NCBI GenBank assembly: GCA_017553445.1
Contig: JAFZMD010000009.1
Span: 1-39,910 of the forward strand
DNA: 39,910 bases
Origin: Methanobrevibacter sp.
GTDB taxonomy: Archaea > Methanobacteriota > Methanobacteria > Methanobacteriales > Methanobacteriaceae
Reading direction: 5' to 3'
Part shown: in pieces, positions 3 to 14,853 of the stretch
Layout of the letters: each line of letters begins with the position of its first letter
Numbering within the stretch: position 1 is the first letter of the stretch
The notes under the pieces: model-generated
Seen by the model: only the letters and a program-made list of their open reading frames with translations
What the model was told of the DNA's origin: nothing
Databases searched by the model: none
Made by a program: the position numbers and the translations under genes

Positions 3-3000
3 CCGGTAATTTCAATTTCTGATAATGCGACTAAATATCTTGAGAATGCTTCATTCACTATTAGTACTGATGTTCCTGGTTATTACACTTTAATTATTAA
101 TGGAACTGAAGTGGACATTTATAAAGTAAATGGAGAGTTAATAGTTAATGTTCCTACTACTTTGGTTCCTGGTCGTTATGATGTTAACGTGACTGTTGAT
201 GAGAGCGAAAACCATACTGCTGGTAATGCTCATGCTACCTTAACTGTTGGGCCTGCTACTGGTGAGATTAATTTGACTGCTGATAATATAACTTATGGCG
301 GAACTGTAATTATCACTCCTAGTGCTCTTGAAGGAGCTACAGGTAACTTAGAATACACTATTAAAAATAGCAGTGGTGCTGTTGTCAGAGAAGGAACTAA
401 AGCAATTGGCGAATCATTTGATGTTTCTGATTTAGCTGCAGGTACTTACACTGTTACTGCAACTTACAGAAATGATCCATTATATAGTTCCGTTACTGTA
501 AATGGCATTACATTTAATGTAAGCAAAGCCGTTCCTGAATTCGATGCCAGTGCTTTGGATGTTGTTTATGGTACTAATATAACGGTTGTTCCTAATGCCA
601 ATGTAAATAATGGTAATGTAAACTACACTGTTAAAGATAAAGACGGTAATGTTGTTGTTAATGGCATTAAAGGTGTTAGTGAAAGCTTCACTGCTAAATT
701 GGCCGCAGGTAAATACACTGTGAACGCAACTTACTTAGGCAATCAAAATTACACAGCTTCAACTGTTGTATTTAATGTAACTGTAAGTAAAGCAAATTCA
801 ACTGTTGTCATTGATGTTGAGAAAGTTTATGATTACAATGATACCATTATTATTAATTTAACCACTACTGGTTCCAATGGTGTTTTAAATGTAACTATAA
901 ATGGTAAAGTTTATCCTGTAAATACTGAAAAACAAGTTGTAATTGAAAACATTACTGCTGGCGAGTACACTATTATTGCTAATTTGGCTGGTGATGAAAA
1001 TTACACTGCTATCTTTAATTCAACTACATTTAAAGTTAAAAAGGCTACAACCAGTGTTGAAATAGGTGTCAAGTCAATTTATAAAGTCGGTGATGTTATT
1101 GAAATTACTTTAACCACTGTTAATTTAACTGATTTAACAGTTACAGTTAATGGTGTAGTTAAAGAGGTGGATGAGAATAATAAGATTACTATTACTAACG
1201 CTAAAGCTGGTGACTATATTGTCAATGCTGTCTTGGCAGGCAATGATAATTATACTGGATCCAATGATACCAAATCATTCAAAGTAGTTAAAAACAATGT
1301 GACAATTAGTGTTAATTCCACTACTGTTCCTGTATCTATTGTTGTTGGAAGTCCTGTAACATTTACTGCTAACCTGAATGAGTCCGTTACCGGTGATGTG
1401 ATTTTCACTATCGGTGATGCAAACTACACCGTACCTATTGAAAATAAGGATGTTGCTACCTACACATACACTCCAGCCAATAATGCTACAATTGCTGTTG
1501 TCGCTACATTTGCAGGTAATGATAAGTATAATGCTATCGCATCAGCTGAAAAACAATTTGGCGTTAAAACAGTTCCTACTGATGTTAATGTGACGGTTAA
1601 AACTCCTGTAACTTATGGTAATGATGCTGTAATTACTGTTGAATTAAACGTTACTATTAATGCTACTGTTAAATTAAGTATTGATGATAAGAAGTATGAT
1701 GTTGCTATAGTTAACGGTAAAGGAGGATTCAATGCTTCCGGTTTAACTAGCGGTAATCATAATATTGATGTAGTATTTGCCGGTGATGGTTACTATGAAA
1801 GAAGCACAAACTCCACAACATTCACTGTTGATAAAGCTGAGTTAGGTGCTAAAGTAACCGCTTTAAATGTCACTGTTTCAGACAATACTTCATTCATCAT
1901 TGATGCTATCGGAGACTTTAAAGGAAATGTTTCAATTAAGTCTGGCGATAATGTATTGTACAACGGTTCCGTTAAAACTATAATTGATGCTTCAAGATTG
2001 CCTGCAGGAGACTATGTTGCTACTGCAGTATTCTACGGCGATAATAATTATAATAAATCAACTTTGGATAACATTAAATTCACTGTTTCAAGAGTTACTC
2101 CAACAATTACTGTCGAAATTAGTGATGTAACTTTCCCTGCCAATGCTACTGCTACTATTAAGGTGAGTAATAAAGCAAACGGTACTGTTAATATTACTGT
2201 TGGCACTAAAGTCTTTAAAGGATCTGTAAATAATGGTTCCGCTACAATAACACTAAATAACTTATCTGCAGGCAGCAAAGTTGCTAAAGTGGAGTTCTTC
2301 ACTAATGATGCTTATAATGGTAATGCTACTGCTAGCGCTAAATTTAATGTAAATAAAGCTAATTCAACTGTTGTTATTGATGTTGAGAAAGTTTATGTCT
2401 ACAATGACAATATTATTATTAATTTAACCGCTAACGGTTCTCCTGGTGCCGTTAATGTAACGATTAATGGTAAAGTTTATCCTGTAAATGCTGATATGCA
2501 AATTGTTATTGAAAGCATTACTGCCGGAGAGTACACTATTATTGCTGATTTGACAGGTAATGAAAATTACACTGGCGCTTCCAATTCAACTACATTTAAA
2601 GTTAAAAAGGCTGAAACTAGTGTTTCAATTGGTGTTGACTCAGTTTATAAAGTCGGTGACAATGTCATTATTATTTTAACTACTGATAATGCAACTGATT
2701 TAACTGTTATGGTCAATGGTGAAGTTAAACCGGTAAATGCTGATAATACAGTTATTATTTCAAATGCTGATGCTGGTGATTACATTGTCAATGCTATTAT
2801 TAAAGGTAATGAAAACTACACTGGATCCAATGATACCAAATCATTCAAAGTAGTTAAAAATATTGTTTCCATCAGTGTTAATTCCACTACTGTTCCTGCA
2901 TCTATTGTTGTTGGCAGTCCTGTGACATTTACTGCTAACTTGAATGATTCTGTCACTGGTGATGTGATATTCACTATCAATGGTGCAAACTACACTGTAC

Positions 3001-6000
3001 ATATCACAGGTAAAGATGTTGCTACTTACAAATACACTCCAATTAACAATGATACAATAACTGTTATCGCTACATTTGATGGCAATGATAATTATAATAC
3101 TGCTGTATCAGCTCCAGAAGAGTTCAATGTTAATAAAGTTCCTACTTCATTATCTGTAAGTATAGATAAGACTTCAATCTATGTTGGTGAAAATGCTGTT
3201 GTTAGTGTTACTTTAAATCAATCTGTCACTGGTGTTGTAACTGTTAGAGTCAATGGTAAAGATTATCTTGTTTCTGTTGTAAATGGTGAAGGTAGCTTAA
3301 CTTTAAGCGATTTGGCTAAAGGCAATTACAATATTGGTGCTGTATTTGCTGGTGATGGCAAATATGTTGAAAGCACTTCCAATAATGTAACTTTAAAAGT
3401 TAATCAGATTACTACCAGTGTTGATGTAACTTTCGAGTCATCTATTGTTGCTGGTGAAGATGCATTAATTAAAGTTAATATGAATCCAAAGATTAATGGT
3501 ACTGTTAAATTGAATGTTGGTGACATGTCTTATAACGTTGCTGTTGTCAATGGTGTTGGAACTTTAACTGTTTCCAATTTAGCAAATGGCACTTACAATG
3601 TTAAAGCTGAATTTGCCGGTGATGATAAGTATTCCGGCAGTTCCTCTGCTGTTAAAAAATTAATGGTTAATATGGTTACTACCAAGTTGTCCATTAGCAT
3701 CGATAAGACTTCAATGACTGTCGATGATAAGGCTGTTGTTAGTGCTGTTTTGAATCCTTCAATTACTGATGTTATCACTGTTAGAGTCAATGGTAAAGAG
3801 TATCCTATTGCTGTTGTAGACGGTAAAGGTAGTTTAACTTTAAGTGATTTGGCTAAAGGCACTTACGATATTGATGCTGTGTTTGCTGGTGATGATAAAT
3901 ACACAGAAAGCACTTCAGGCACTGTAACATTGGAAGTTAAAGGAAAAACAGTTACTGAAATGTCTGTTGACATTGATGTGGAAAAAGGCATTGCAACTGT
4001 CGTGCTTCCTGATGATGCTACAGGTAATGTAACCGTTGTTATTGACGGTAAAGTTTACAATGTAACTGATATCACTGAAAGCCCTGTTACTATTGGAATT
4101 GGTGAGTTAAAACCAGGAAATCACACTATTGAAGTAATATATTCTGGTGATGATTTCTTCACTCCGGATTCAAACATCACTGATGTTGAAGTTCCAAGAG
4201 TTGATGATTATGAAATAACTGCTGATGCTCGTGTGGACGGATCTTCTGTTGATATTACTGTAAGCTTGCCTAAAGATATATTCGGTCCTGTGCTAATTGA
4301 TGTTGATGGTGTCGGCTATTATGCTAATGCAGAAAATGGTCAAGCTAAATTGCACTTGGATGATTTATCTAAAGGAAAACATGATGTGGTTGTAACTTAT
4401 CCTGGTGATGATAAGTATGCGTCTAAAGGTAATTCCACTTCATTTAATATTGATGCGAAAGAAACTCCAATGAGCATTGTGGTTGGTGATGATGAGGTTG
4501 TTGTTGTATTGCCTGGTGATGCTACTGGTAGTGTGACCGTATCTATTGATGGTAAGACTCAGACTGTTCCTGTTGAAGGTGGTAAGGCTGTTGTGGATAT
4601 TTCCGGTTTAGAGCCTGGTCAACATACTGTTGAGGCTTCTTATCCTGGTGATGACAATTATGGTCCTGCTTCAAATTCAACTGTCTTTGAAGTTCCTAAG
4701 ATTAGTGATTATCCAATTGTTGTATCTGAAGAGGATGATAAATTGGTTGTAAATGTTCCTAAAGACGCTACTGGTGATGTAAAAGTAACTATTGATGGTA
4801 AAGAGTACACTGCTCCTATTAAAGACGGTAAGGCTGTTGTGGATATTTCCGATTTAGAACCAGGTAAGCATGCTGTTGAAGTGACTTATCCTGGTGACAA
4901 GAAATATGCTCAAGCATCTAATGCAACAGTCGTTGATATTCCTAAAGCAGATGATTATAAAATCACTGCTACTGCAAAAGTTGATGGAACTTCAGCAGAT
5001 ATTACTGTAACCTTGCCTAAAGATGCAACCGGTCCGGTACTTATTGATGTAAATGGTGTCGGCTATTATGCTAATGCAGAAAATGGTCAGGCTAAACTGC
5101 ACTTGGATGACTTATCTAAAGGAAAATATGATGTGGTTGTAACTTATCCTGGTGATGATAAGTATGCGTCTAAAGGTAATTCCACTTCATTTAATATAGA
5201 TGCTAAAGAAACTCCAATGAGCATTAATGTTAAAGATGATGAGATTGTTGTTGAATTGCCTAGTGATGCTACTGGTAATGTGACTGTATCTATTGATGGT
5301 AAGACTCAGACTGTTCCTGTTGAAGGTGGTAAGGCTGTTGTGGATATTTCCGGTTTGGAACCTGGTCAGCATACTGTTGAGGCTTCTTATCCTGGTGATG
5401 ACAATTATGGTCCTGCTTCTAATTCAACTGTCTTTGAAGTTCCTAAGATTAGTGATTATCCAATTGTTGTATCTGAAGAGGATGATAAATTGGTTGTAAA
5501 TGTTCCTAAAGACGCTACTGGTGATGTAAAAGTAACTATCGATGGTAAAGAATATACTGCTCCAATTAAAGACGGTAAAGCTGTTGTGGATATTTCCGAT
5601 TTAGAACCAGGTAAACATGCTGTTGATGTAACCTATCCTGGTGATAAGAAATATGCTCAGGCTTCAAATGCAACAGTCGTTGAAATTCCTAAGATTTCAG
5701 ATTATCCATTTGAAGTAAAAGCTGAAGACATTTATGTTGGAGAAAAAACCGATATAACTGTAAGCTTACCTAAAGACGTTAACGGTCAGGTATTAGTTGA
5801 TATTAATGGAATTGGATATTATGTTAATGTAACTGATGGCGTTGCTCATGTAGACTTACCTCTTGATTTAGAACCTGGATCTTATGATGCTATTGTCACG
5901 TTCCCTGGAAATGATAAATACGAATCAAAAACAGTAAAAGATTCATTCAATGTTGCAGAAAAAGAAACAACAATAATCATATCAGTCGAGGATGATAATA

Positions 6001-7478
6001 TTGTCATTGAATTGCCTAAAGATGCAACCGGTAATGTGGATGTATCAATTAACGGCAAAACTCAAACTGTACCGATTAAAGATGGAAAAGCTGTTGTAGA
6101 CATTTCTGATTTGGAACCTGGCAATTACACTGTTGTTGCAAATTATCCTGGAGACGGCGAATATCCTCCAGCATCAAATTCAACTAGCTTTGAAGTTCCT
6201 AAGGTGTCAGATTATCCAATGAACATGACCAATACGGATGATGAATTAACTATTAATGTTCCTAAAGATGCTACTGGTGATGTAAAAGTAACTATTGATG
6301 GAAAAGATTACACTGTTCCTATTAAAGATGGTAAAGCTGTTTTAGACATCTCTGGTTTACCAAATGGTAATCATGATGTTAAAGTTACCTATCCGGGTAA
6401 TGACAAATACGCTTCAAAAACTATTACAGGAATTATTGTTAAAGAGCGCTCTCTTATAATGACTGCTCCTGATGTAGTTAAATATTACCACGGTCCTGAA
6501 AGGTTTGTTGTCTATTTAACAGATGATAAAGGAAATAAATTAAGTGGTTTGGAAGTTAAAATAACTATTAATGGCCAGACTTACACCAGAACTAGTGAAA
6601 ATGGTGAAGCTTCAATTGCTTTAGGACTTATCAGCGGTAATTATACTGTCGATGTTAAATTTGAAGGTAATGATGAATTCAAACCTCAAAGCATTAATGC
6701 AAGCGTTGAAATACGTCCTACAATCTATGCAAATGATGTATTTAAAGTCTATAAAAACGGAACCCAATACTATGCATTATTTGTAGACAGTGAAGGTGTT
6801 CCATTGGCCAATACTGAGGTTAGCTTCAATATTAATGGTGTATTCTACCATAGAACCACTAATGAATCTGGTTGGGCTAAATTAAACATTAATCTTCCGG
6901 AAGGTGAATATCAATTAACTGCAATCAATCCGGTTACTAATGAAATGAGAACCAATAACGTTACTGTAATTACTTTGATTGAATCCAGTGATTTAACCAA
7001 ATATTACAGAAACGGCAGTCAATTCATTGTACGCATCCACTCTGATGATGGCGGATGGGCTCAAGCAGGTGAAGAGGTAACATTTAATATCAATGGTGTA
7101 TTCTATACAAGAACCACTAATGAAACAGGACATGTAAAATTGAATATTAATATAGCTCCTGGAGATTATGTAATTACAACATCATATAAAGGCTGTCTTG
7201 AAAGTAACAATATTCATGTGCTTCCTAGATTGATTACTTCTGATTTGACTATGAAATATCATGACGGATCCACTTTTGTTGCAAAAACTTTGGATGAGCA
7301 AGGCAATCCTGCCCCTCATCAGGAAGTTTCATTCAACGTTAATGGAATATTGTATTCCCGTATAACCAATGACAATGGTGAAGCTGCAATAACTATTAAT
7401 TTACAGGCAGGTAAATACATAATCACTTCCCAATACGGATATGAAAGAAATTCAAATACAATTATAATAGAGGCTTAA
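3..7478 (+). CDS. Adhesin-like surface protein with Ig-like repeats (5' end outside window)
   Basis: The reading frame is open from base 3, so the gene begins upstream of the window; the GTG at 111 is only an internal codon. The visible part is about 2491 residues. I count 25 successive Ig-like units of about 75-95 residues. Each ends in a pattern like PGxYxVxVxYxGDDKY followed by a short strand, as in bacterial Ig-like (Big_3-type) domains. Four different units follow (from about base 6450), with the core FNINGVFYxRTTNExG and a closing AxGxYxITxxY. Such proteins are abundant on Methanobrevibacter cells and are thought to bind host, plant or microbial partners. The sequence is rich in N-x-S/T sites and Asp, has one cysteine, and shows no C-terminal membrane segment or LPxTG motif. 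The signal peptide must lie outside the window. Adhesin function is inferred from architecture; the ligand is unknown. Confidence 0.93.
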   Translation, partial: PVISISDNATKYLENASFTISTDVPGYYTLIINGTEVDIYKVNGELIVNVPTTLVPGRYDVNVTVDESENHTAGNAHATLTVGPATGEINLTADNITYGGTVIITPSALEGATGNLEYTIKNSSGAVVREGTKAIGESFDVSDLAAGTYTVTATYRNDPLYSSVTVNGITFNVSKAVPEFDASALDVVYGTNITVVPNANVNNGNVNYTVKDKDGNVVVNGIKGVSESFTAKLAAGKYTVNATYLGNQNYTASTVVFNVTVSKANSTVVIDVEKVYDYNDTIIINLTTTGSNGVLNVTINGKVYPVNTEKQVVIENITAGEYTIIANLAGDENYTAIFNSTTFKVKKATTSVEIGVKSIYKVGDVIEITLTTVNLTDLTVTVNGVVKEVDENNKITITNAKAGDYIVNAVLAGNDNYTGSNDTKSFKVVKNNVTISVNSTTVPVSIVVGSPVTFTANLNESVTGDVIFTIGDANYTVPIENKDVATYTYTPANNATIAVVATFAGNDKYNAIASAEKQFGVKTVPTDVNVTVKTPVTYGNDAVITVELNVTINATVKLSIDDKKYDVAIVNGKGGFNASGLTSGNHNIDVVFAGDGYYERSTNSTTFTVDKAELGAKVTALNVTVSDNTSFIIDAIGDFKGNVSIKSGDNVLYNGSVKTIIDASRLPAGDYVATAVFYGDNNYNKSTLDNIKFTVSRVTPTITVEISDVTFPANATATIKVSNKANGTVNITVGTKVFKGSVNNGSATITLNNLSAGSKVAKVEFFTNDAYNGNATASAKFNVNKANSTVVIDVEKVYVYNDNIIINLTANGSPGAVNVTINGKVYPVNADMQIVIESITAGEYTIIADLTGNENYTGASNSTTFKVKKAETSVSIGVDSVYKVGDNVIIILTTDNATDLTVMVNGEVKPVNADNTVIISNADAGDYIVNAIIKGNENYTGSNDTKSFKVVKNIVSISVNSTTVPASIVVGSPVTFTANLNDSVTGDVIFTINGANYTVHITGKDVATYKYTPINNDTITVIATFDGNDNYNTAVSAPEEFNVNKVPTSLSVSIDKTSIYVGENAVVSVTLNQSVTGVVTVRVNGKDYLVSVVNGEGSLTLSDLAKGNYNIGAVFAGDGKYVESTSNNVTLKVNQITTSVDVTFESSIVAGEDALIKVNMNPKINGTVKLNVGDMSYNVAVVNGVGTLTVSNLANGTYNVKAEFAGDDKYSGSSSAVKKLMVNMVTTKLSISIDKTSMTVDDKAVVSAVLNPSITDVITVRVNGKEYPIAVVDGKGSLTLSDLAKGTYDIDAVFAGDDKYTESTSGTVTLEVKGKTVTEMSVDIDVEKGIATVVLPDDATGNVTVVIDGKVYNVTDITESPVTIGIGELKPGNHTIEVIYSGDDFFTPDSNITDVEVPRVDDYEITADARVDGSSVDITVSLPKDIFGPVLIDVDGVGYYANAENGQAKLHLDDLSKGKHDVVVTYPGDDKYASKGNSTSFNIDAKETPMSIVVGDDEVVVVLPGDATGSVTVSIDGKTQTVPVEGGKAVVDISGLEPGQHTVEASYPGDDNYGPASNSTVFEVPKISDYPIVVSEEDDKLVVNVPKDATGDVKVTIDGKEYTAPIKDGKAVVDISDLEPGKHAVEVTYPGDKKYAQASNATVVDIPKADDYKITATAKVDGTSADITVTLPKDATGPVLIDVNGVGYYANAENGQAKLHLDDLSKGKYDVVVTYPGDDKYASKGNSTSFNIDAKETPMSINVKDDEIVVELPSDATGNVTVSIDGKTQTVPVEGGKAVVDISGLEPGQHTVEASYPGDDNYGPASNSTVFEVPKISDYPIVVSEEDDKLVVNVPKDATGDVKVTIDGKEYTAPIKDGKAVVDISDLEPGKHAVDVTYPGDKKYAQASNATVVEIPKISDYPFEVKAEDIYVGEKTDITVSLPKDVNGQVLVDINGIGYYVNVTDGVAHVDLPLDLEPGSYDAIVTFPGNDKYESKTVKDSFNVAEKETTIIISVEDDNIVIELPKDATGNVDVSINGKTQTVPIKDGKAVVDISDLEPGNYTVVANYPGDGEYPPASNSTSFEVPKVSDYPMNMTNTDDELTINVPKDATGDVKVTIDGKDYTVPIKDGKAVLDISGLPNGNHDVKVTYPGNDKYASKTITGIIVKERSLIMTAPDVVKYYHGPERFVVYLTDDKGNKLSGLEVKITINGQTYTRTSENGEASIALGLISGNYTVDVKFEGNDEFKPQSINASVEIRPTIYANDVFKVYKNGTQYYALFVDSEGVPLANTEVSFNINGVFYHRTTNESGWAKLNINLPEGEYQLTAINPVTNEMRTNNVTVITLIESSDLTKYYRNGSQFIVRIHSDDGGWAQAGEEVTFNINGVFYTRTTNETGHVKLNINIAPGDYVITTSYKGCLESNNIHVLPRLITSDLTMKYHDGSTFVAKTLDEQGNPAPHQEVSFNVNGILYSRITNDNGEAAITINLQAGKYIITSQYGYERNSNTIIIEA
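789..3140 (+). repeat. Dispersed three-unit repeat in the adhesin gene, offset 1566 bp
   Basis: A block from about 789 to 1575 recurs at about 2355-3140. AATTCAACTG occurs at 795 and 2361, and GGATCCAATG at 1257 and 2823, both exactly 1566 bp apart (522 codons). A stretch of roughly 38 bp starting at 1257/2823 is base-for-base identical, including synonymous positions. Other parts of the block have diverged, so the copies are older than the 747-bp tandem or have been partly homogenised. Confidence 0.8.
4203..5696 (+). repeat. Tandem 747-bp duplication (249 codons, three Ig-like units) in the adhesin gene
   Basis: Copy 1 (about 4203-4949) and copy 2 (about 4950-5696) align with a constant offset of 747 bp. 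For example, the ATCTATTGAT in the middle unit is at 4541 and again at 5288. Each copy encodes three Ig-like units and the two are nearly identical in protein and largely in DNA. A third, clearly diverged version of the same three-unit block follows at about 5697-6440. The exact borders are approximate because repeat units share similarity with one another. Confidence 0.88.
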
Positions 7479-12972: not shown

Positions 12973-12999
12973 TTATAATTGATTAAAGCGAGGAGGATT

Positions 13000-13914
13000 A
13001 TGAGTTTAATCATAGCATATGTAGGTAAGAAAGGCTGTGTCATGGCCAGTGATAAAAGGCGAATTGCTTATTTCGGCAACAATAGACAAGCCTTGGAAGA
13101 TGAATTATATAACGGAAGTATTACAACAGATGAAGAACTTTATGAAAGATCAAAAGAACTCGACGTTCCAATTAAAATATCAGACAATGCAGATAAATTG
13201 CGAATTGTAGGAAATACCGTTAGGGGTGAAGTAAGTACTAAAGGAACCCATGAAACAAAACGTAAAAGGATTTATGGAACAACCAACGGTTACCAAGTTG
13301 TGGAATTAATTGGATCTGAAACTAAATCACGCCAAGCTGGTGAAAAGGGAATCATATTGTTTGGCAATGACTTTGCTAAAAAACAGGCTGAAATTTTAAT
13401 CCAAAAAAGATGGAAAGCTTCACACAGTTTAAGATTGATGGGAGATATTTTTGGGGAAATATTAACTGCCATTGCTCAAAAGACACCGACAATAGGTAAG
13501 GAGCATGATGTTTTAATCCAGCAACCTAAATTTAACCCTTCTGAAGCTCAAAAGCATCTAAACATTACAATCGATGCAGACATCAAGGTCCTGACCAAAT
13601 ATCGCCAGCAATTAACTGAAGAAATGATTCAAAAAACCAAAGAAATTGAATTGGCTAATAAAATCATTAATGACGGACCTATTGGTGAGGTAATATCAAT
13701 AGACGGCAAGATGGTTGAAGTGAAACTGAACGACAAAACACAGGCATTCAACTTCAACTGGAAGCCTCTGGCAGGTCCGAATCATAATGTAATCATGTTC
13801 AGCGACAGTGACGATATTGAAATTGGCGATAAAGTCGTAATTAAAGATGAGGTTTTGTGTCTTAAGAAAAACAGTTCTCCATTGTCATGTAATATTATCT
13901 TATGTTCACTATGA
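13000..13914 (+). CDS. DUF2121 protein, connectase-type protein ligase (proteasome-beta-like)
   Basis: The start is the ATG at 13000, behind GAGGAGG; a TTG at 12979 is rejected. The 304-residue protein opens MSLIIAYVGKKGCVMASDKR, which resembles a proteasome beta subunit. After Met removal Ser would be residue 1, and the Asp and Arg of ASDKR fall at 17 and 19, as in proteasome active sites. A charged helical middle is followed by a strand-rich C-terminal barrel (from about residue 225). This layout fits DUF2121, shown in methanogens to be connectase, which joins proteins by transpeptidation and whose reported substrate is the MtrA methyltransferase subunit. The described enzyme uses an N-terminal Thr; here it is Ser. 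A Lys at the proteasome Lys33 spacing is not evident. The next gene is 9 bp downstream. The family assignment is good; activity is inference. Confidence 0.75.
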   Translation: MSLIIAYVGKKGCVMASDKRRIAYFGNNRQALEDELYNGSITTDEELYERSKELDVPIKISDNADKLRIVGNTVRGEVSTKGTHETKRKRIYGTTNGYQVVELIGSETKSRQAGEKGIILFGNDFAKKQAEILIQKRWKASHSLRLMGDIFGEILTAIAQKTPTIGKEHDVLIQQPKFNPSEAQKHLNITIDADIKVLTKYRQQLTEEMIQKTKEIELANKIINDGPIGEVISIDGKMVEVKLNDKTQAFNFNWKPLAGPNHNVIMFSDSDDIEIGDKVVIKDEVLCLKKNSSPLSCNIILCSL

Positions 13915-13923
13915 GGAAAGCAA

Positions 13924-14853
13924 ATGAAGATAATATTCTTAGGAACCGGTGGAGGAAGATTTTCATCCATCAACCAAAGAAGAATGACTGGCGGATTTAG
14001 GATAGATAATTTGGGCGGAAAGAATTATCATGTCGACCCTGGGCCTGGCGCTTTGGTTAGAACATACCAATTCGGCCTTGATCCGAGAAATGTTGATGGG
14101 GTATTTGTTTCCCATTCGCATACTGACCATTATAATGACGCTGAAATAATAATTGAAGCAATGACCAATGGAATGACTCAAAATTATGGCCATATCATCG
14201 GTTCAAAAAGTGTTCTGTCAGGTTTTGAAGAATGGGGTCCTTGCATTTCATCATACCATCAATCCAGATCCAAAGTACTGGAAGTTGAAAAGGGAGATAT
14301 AAGATATTTTGATAACTGCCTGATTAAAGCCACGCCGACCAATCATGCCGATCCAAAGGGTGTGGGCTTTCAGATTGAATATAAGGATTTCAAAATATCA
14401 TACACTTCAGATACTGCCTATTTCCCTGAATTAGCAAAAGCCCATGATGGTGCGGACATATTGATAGCCAGTGTTCTTCGTCCGGGAAACAAATCCATTA
14501 GGGGACATTTATGCTCATCAGGATTTATTAGATTGATAAAAGAGATTAAGCCTAGATTGGCAATCATGACACATTTGGGTCTTAAAATGATTTCAAACAA
14601 TCCTATTGGTGAGGCTAAAAGGATAACCAAACTGACTGGCGTTAAAACTTTGGCGGCATTTGATGGAATGTCTCTGGATATCAACTATAATAATCCGGCA
14701 AAGGCACGCATAGTATCCTTAAAGGATGTTGATGCACCTTACCACGGTTCAAATTCAAATCTGTCAAATTTTGAAAGGAGAAATGTAAATAAGCTTGCAG
14801 ATAAACATGGGGAAAATGATGAGCTTTCCTTAATAAGAAGGAATAGCTTTTAA
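13924..14853 (+). CDS. Metallo-beta-lactamase-fold hydrolase
   Basis: The 309-residue protein has the N-terminal strand [10 protein letters not shown], the metal-binding SHSHTDH motif (His64, His66, Asp68, His69) and the later ligands expected of the fold: a histidine in TNHADPKG, an Asp in YTSDTAYF and a His in MTHLG. It resembles the RNase Z/phosphodiesterase-like branch of the MBL superfamily rather than lactonases, but the substrate is not clear. The ATG at 13924 follows GAGGAAAG. Only 9 bp separate it from the connectase-like gene, so the two are probably co-transcribed. Its last 24 bp overlap the 3' end of the convergent aroC. Confidence 0.85.

Follow-up and report, generated by a model that had tools for sequence, protein, structure and literature searches.

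A two-domain connectase with serine at residue 1, the common state in Methanobacteria, encoded in a Methanobrevibacter genome

The gene at positions 13000 to 13914 (+ strand) of the window, as we call the whole 39,910-nucleotide stretch of Methanobrevibacter sp. DNA analyzed here, encodes a connectase of an ordinary, already known kind, and the serine at its residue 1 does not make it a new variant. Connectases are proteasome-related enzymes that cut and rejoin proteins. We are highly confident that this one is a standard connectase of the two-domain MJ0548 type, belonging to a Methanobrevibacter-type methanogen and using Ser1 as its N-terminal nucleophile like nearly all of the class.

Family, fold, and start site

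The open reading frame of 304 amino acids (plus stop codon) encodes a protein that begins Met-Ser-Leu-Ile-Ile-Ala-Tyr (MSLIIAYVGKKGCVMASDKRRIAYFG...). We number the cleaved methionine as residue 0 and the serine as residue 1. In Pfam searches, the protein matched PF09894 (MJ0548_N) over 196 of 196 positions (residues 1 to 196; E = 2.7e-63; 213.6 bits versus a cutoff of 26.8) and PF25274 (MJ0548_C) over 97 of 97 positions (residues 200 to 302; E = 4.3e-30), agreement that greatly exceeds what chance would give. The only significant matches in a sequence search of the PDB were Methanocaldococcus jannaschii MJ0548 (6zvz; phmmer, 3.7e-32) and the Methanosarcina mazei connectase, and the NCBIfam profiles contained no matching connectase model. 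We also searched the PDB by Foldseek with an AlphaFold2 model built from 42 aligned homologues (mean pLDDT, 92). The best five matches were connectases, with 6zvz first (E = 2.1e-26; TM 0.82/0.84), and proteasome beta subunits ranked after them (TM about 0.35/0.48). The profile, PDB, and Foldseek searches together identify the gene as the MJ0548 orthologue.

The model has a proteasome-beta-like fold in which two helices are inserted between strands 3 and 4, an element described for connectases (PMC8665760). This signature element (Hins1/Hins2), placed before strand 4 by predicted helices at residues 29 to 37 and 44 to 53, is encoded at 13084 to 13158 (+). The C-terminal MJ0548_C domain, which is found in some connectases, is encoded at 13597 to 13905 (+) and is predicted to be beta-rich, with model strands in residues 226 to 303. 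The codon for the presumed nucleophile Ser1 (AGT; 13003 to 13005, +) aligns with the serine of MJ0548, and those of Asp17, Arg19, and Lys65 lie at 13051 to 13053, 13057 to 13059, and 13195 to 13197 (all +). By sequence alignment, Lys65 matches a lysine in both crystallized connectases, MJ0548 and that of M. mazei, and is the probable equivalent of proteasome Lys33.

Whether Ser1 can act as an N-terminal nucleophile depends on the start codon. The frame is open upstream as far as an in-frame TTG at 12979, which lengthens it by seven codons; were that TTG used, the serine would be internal and the protein would not be an N-terminal-nucleophile enzyme. We give this reading next to no weight. A Shine-Dalgarno sequence, GAGGAGG (12990 to 12996, +), sits immediately before the ATG at 13000, and identical bases precede the ATG in a close relative (L194). 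The start is readable in 122 full-length copies, and in every one of them residue 1 is preceded by a possible initiation codon (ATG in 113, ATT in 8, GTG in 1); the residues upstream vary between clades without conservation. Because ATG precedes residue 1 in 113 of 122 copies and the upstream residues are unconserved, the ATG at 13000, with Ser1 directly following it, is the credible start, and the extension from TTG 12979 is not credible. The first-pass annotation had proposed the family and described an N-terminus of Ser-Leu-Ile-Ile-Ala-Tyr with Asp17 and Arg19. These residues are present exactly as it described, and its family guess is borne out by the full-length Pfam matches and by a fold closest to MJ0548; the two findings it named as fatal, no significant match to connectase and an internal serine, were not encountered.

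ATT directly precedes Ser1 in L158, L164, L175, L200, L209, and L213 (genus g13) and in L180 and L185. Most of these copies stand behind a Shine-Dalgarno-like AGGTGAT or GGAGGG, and in L185 no ATG, GTG, or TTG occurs between the upstream stop and the serine. This arrangement suggests that initiation at ATT may occur in these copies.

Serine and threonine at residue 1

We surveyed 152 genomes of the phylum, in practice a sample of one class, Methanobacteria, with the Halobacteriota (the Thr1 side) lying outside it; 123 of the 152 carry a connectase. Nearly every copy was extracted and read, and among the 123 full-length sequences residue 1 is Ser in 121, Thr in 1, and Val in 1. Asp17 is invariant (123/123), while Arg19 and Lys65 are each present in 122 of 123 copies, with Lys replacing Arg19 only in the Thr1 copy (L163) and Arg replacing Lys65 only in the Val1 copy (G101). 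The deposited sequence of MJ0548, as aligned from 6zvz, likewise reads M-S-L-I-I-C-Y. Ser1 is therefore the common state in Methanobacteria, and the Thr1 copy is the exception in the class. Thr1 is documented for the M. mazei connectase (PMC11745163, PMC10154401), and the first-pass annotation expected threonine because it generalized the M. mazei state to the whole family. Aligning residue 1 across relatives, as it suggested, overturns its claim of novelty: Met-Ser is also what MJ0548 has. For those mining Methanobacteria for ligation tools, serine enzymes are to be expected and should not be taken as variants.

The same annotation proposed that serine could shift the balance between ligation and hydrolysis. 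Serine provides the same N-terminal amine as threonine, together with a hydroxyl. In the connectase reaction the substrate is held covalently through an amide bond to the N-terminal amine, and because this bond resists hydrolysis, no proteolysis takes place (PMC11961121, PMC10154401). By analogy, the window protein would act as a protein ligase via an amide intermediate, and a shift toward hydrolysis is unlikely on the published chemistry. That the two residues are able to differ in rate is indicated by the yeast proteasome beta5 subunit, in which T1S turns the hydroxyl away and cuts peptide hydrolysis by 40 to 45% while leaving the enzyme active (PMC4792962). A rate difference between Ser1 and Thr1 connectases is thus possible by analogy, but the comparison does not suggest a switch to hydrolysis. 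Since serine is usual in the class and MJ0548 has it too, and since the hydrolysis-resistant amide intermediate (PMC11961121) should keep residue 1 by itself from opening a hydrolysis path, we consider a functionally new serine variant with altered balance very improbable, and we retain the reading of an ordinary Ser1 connectase.

The sole non-Ser copies form a tandem pair of fast-evolving connectases in G101, another genome of the window's genus (L163:165-1073 and L163:1209-2129). One has Thr1 and R19K; the other has Val1, K65R, and W253G. The Val1 copy is probably a dead enzyme to judge from these substitutions, and since K65R and W253G accompany the loss of serine, it is independent evidence that Ser1 and Lys65 are working residues. 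G101, a genome that is 83% complete, yielded no MtrA. Elsewhere, two broken copies were seen in L217 (G085) and L218 (G102): one carries stops or a frameshift within the gene, and the other is a fragmentary second copy. An apparent second connectase in G075 (L061) was rejected as a paralogue, as it is near-identical in the tree to genus g9 and is probably a binning contaminant.

MtrA as the likely substrate

The first-pass annotation had also pointed to a KDPGA-like motif in MtrA of the same genome, and the motif is there. The window assembly, a draft with 2.72% contamination, holds three MtrA copies (L002, L003, and L004), each with an intact KDPGAFEE and a C-terminal membrane helix, and one soluble copy (L005; G000:C63) with KDSGAYE. 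The linker of the organism's MtrA reads ...ECVEKDPGAFEEEAMIISV; PGAFEEEAMIISV would be the tag on a ligation partner. L002 (G000:C32) has a C-terminal tail of the genus g9 type rather than that of the window's genus, and its contig is likely a contaminant.

We propose the following as the most likely mechanism, in which the chemistry is taken from the M. mazei papers and the family, fold, residues, and KDPGA substrate come from the present analysis. Methionine aminopeptidase would take off the initial methionine, serine being small, and expose Ser1. Held by Asp17 and Lys65, Ser1 would attack MtrA at the Asp-Pro bond of its KD|PGA linker. PGA and the anchor would leave, and the acyl group would finally be amide-linked to the amino group of Ser1. 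In the reverse reaction, the KD head would be rejoined to a PGA tail. Two steps are our inference: Ser1 taking the role of Thr1, and MtrA serving as substrate in the window organism. A connectase that has drifted to a substrate other than MtrA, or become inactive, might be read from the KDSGA, in place of KDPGA, of the soluble paralogue in the same genome (L005). We regard such drift or inactivity as highly unlikely: the anchored MtrA retains KDPGAFEE, and every catalytic residue is intact. From the sequences, MtrA is most likely what the window connectase acts on.

Genus g12 (L106 to L123 and L281 to L285), in which the enzyme is lost and the lysine of KDPGA decays, offers a natural test of how connectase and MtrA are linked physiologically. 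Connectase was found in 0 of 20 g12 genomes, 13 of which have a completeness of 90% or more and a contamination of 5% or less. The methanol methyltransferase MtaB is present in 15 of the 20, and such richness in MtaB is expected of Methanosphaera; we infer from it that g12 is Methanosphaera-like. The syntenic site in five g12 genomes has a metallo-beta-lactamase gene and aroC-like and/or uvrA-like neighbors and no connectase. The lysine is lost in 17 of 18 g12 MtrA genes (NDPGA in 11, EDPEV in 2, and NDPGC, EDPGC, NNPGA, and NNPGP in 1 each, with KDPGA kept in 1), a decay that belongs to one clade and counts as a single event. Outside g12, anchored MtrA has KDPGA in 52 of 52 cases and the lysine is lost in none, a set that includes a few sequences from drafts without a detected connectase (e.g., G015) whose genus has one. 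Decay of the lysine in connectase-free g12 is the direction expected if connectase keeps that lysine in place.

The gene for a metallo-beta-lactamase-fold hydrolase (PF12706, 1e-22) lies at 13924 to 14853 (+), 10 bases downstream of the connectase gene. In every one of the 67 loci long enough to judge, which span four families, it adjoins connectase and so looked like a functional partner. All 20 g12 genomes that lack connectase have it as well, however, and this persistence rules it out as a dedicated connectase partner. Close to the start of the window, at 111 to 7478, is a 2,455-amino-acid open reading frame of repeated Ig-like, adhesin-type domains.

MtrA homologues also occur beyond the Mtr operon (mtxA; PMC3087415), and connectase-bearing genera yielded 54 MtrA proteins that lack the anchor. 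Their motifs are KDPGA in 44, KDSGA in 6, HDSGA in 2, and RDPGA and KDTGA in 1 each. It is curious that a cut site should be retained where no anchor follows, and these soluble proteins are candidate connectase substrates. In the window organism and in four of its near relatives, soluble MtrA has KDSGA or KDTGA; L005, L254, L286, L287, and L297 are among the 54 soluble loci. At the proline position, the M. mazei connectase accepts Ser, Cys, and Ala, but not Thr (PMC11961121). It is conceivable, although we think it rather unlikely, that connectase acts on both anchored and soluble MtrA, grafting or swapping cobamide-carrying heads at KD|PGA as a repair or isoform switch, and that the Pro-to-Ser change of this clade tunes the exchange. 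That soluble MtrA largely keeps KDPGA hints that connectase could exchange MtrA heads. Genera with a connectase and a single MtrA also exist, and therefore head exchange would not be the only role of connectase.

Comparison with known connectases and the proteasome

The closest known system is MJ0548 of M. jannaschii (PDB 6zvz, 6zw0), the first connectase to be crystallized. The window protein shares with it the two domains, the Met-Ser-Leu-Ile-Ile start, Asp17, Arg19, the aligned lysine, and, in the predicted model, the fold (TM 0.82/0.84), whereas sequence identity is about 30% and the species differ. The M. mazei connectase (PDB 8jtu, 8wkd) resembles it in the fold of the N-terminal domain (TM 0.88 over the shorter chain) and in aligned catalytic positions. 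Unlike the window protein, however, the M. mazei enzyme has Thr1 rather than Ser1, and its chain of 192 residues is without the C-terminal domain. The 20S proteasome beta subunits share the Ntn fold, Asp17, Arg19, and an equivalent of Lys33, but they are only about 10% identical to the window protein, with TM values of about 0.35/0.48, and they use threonine only and are proteases.
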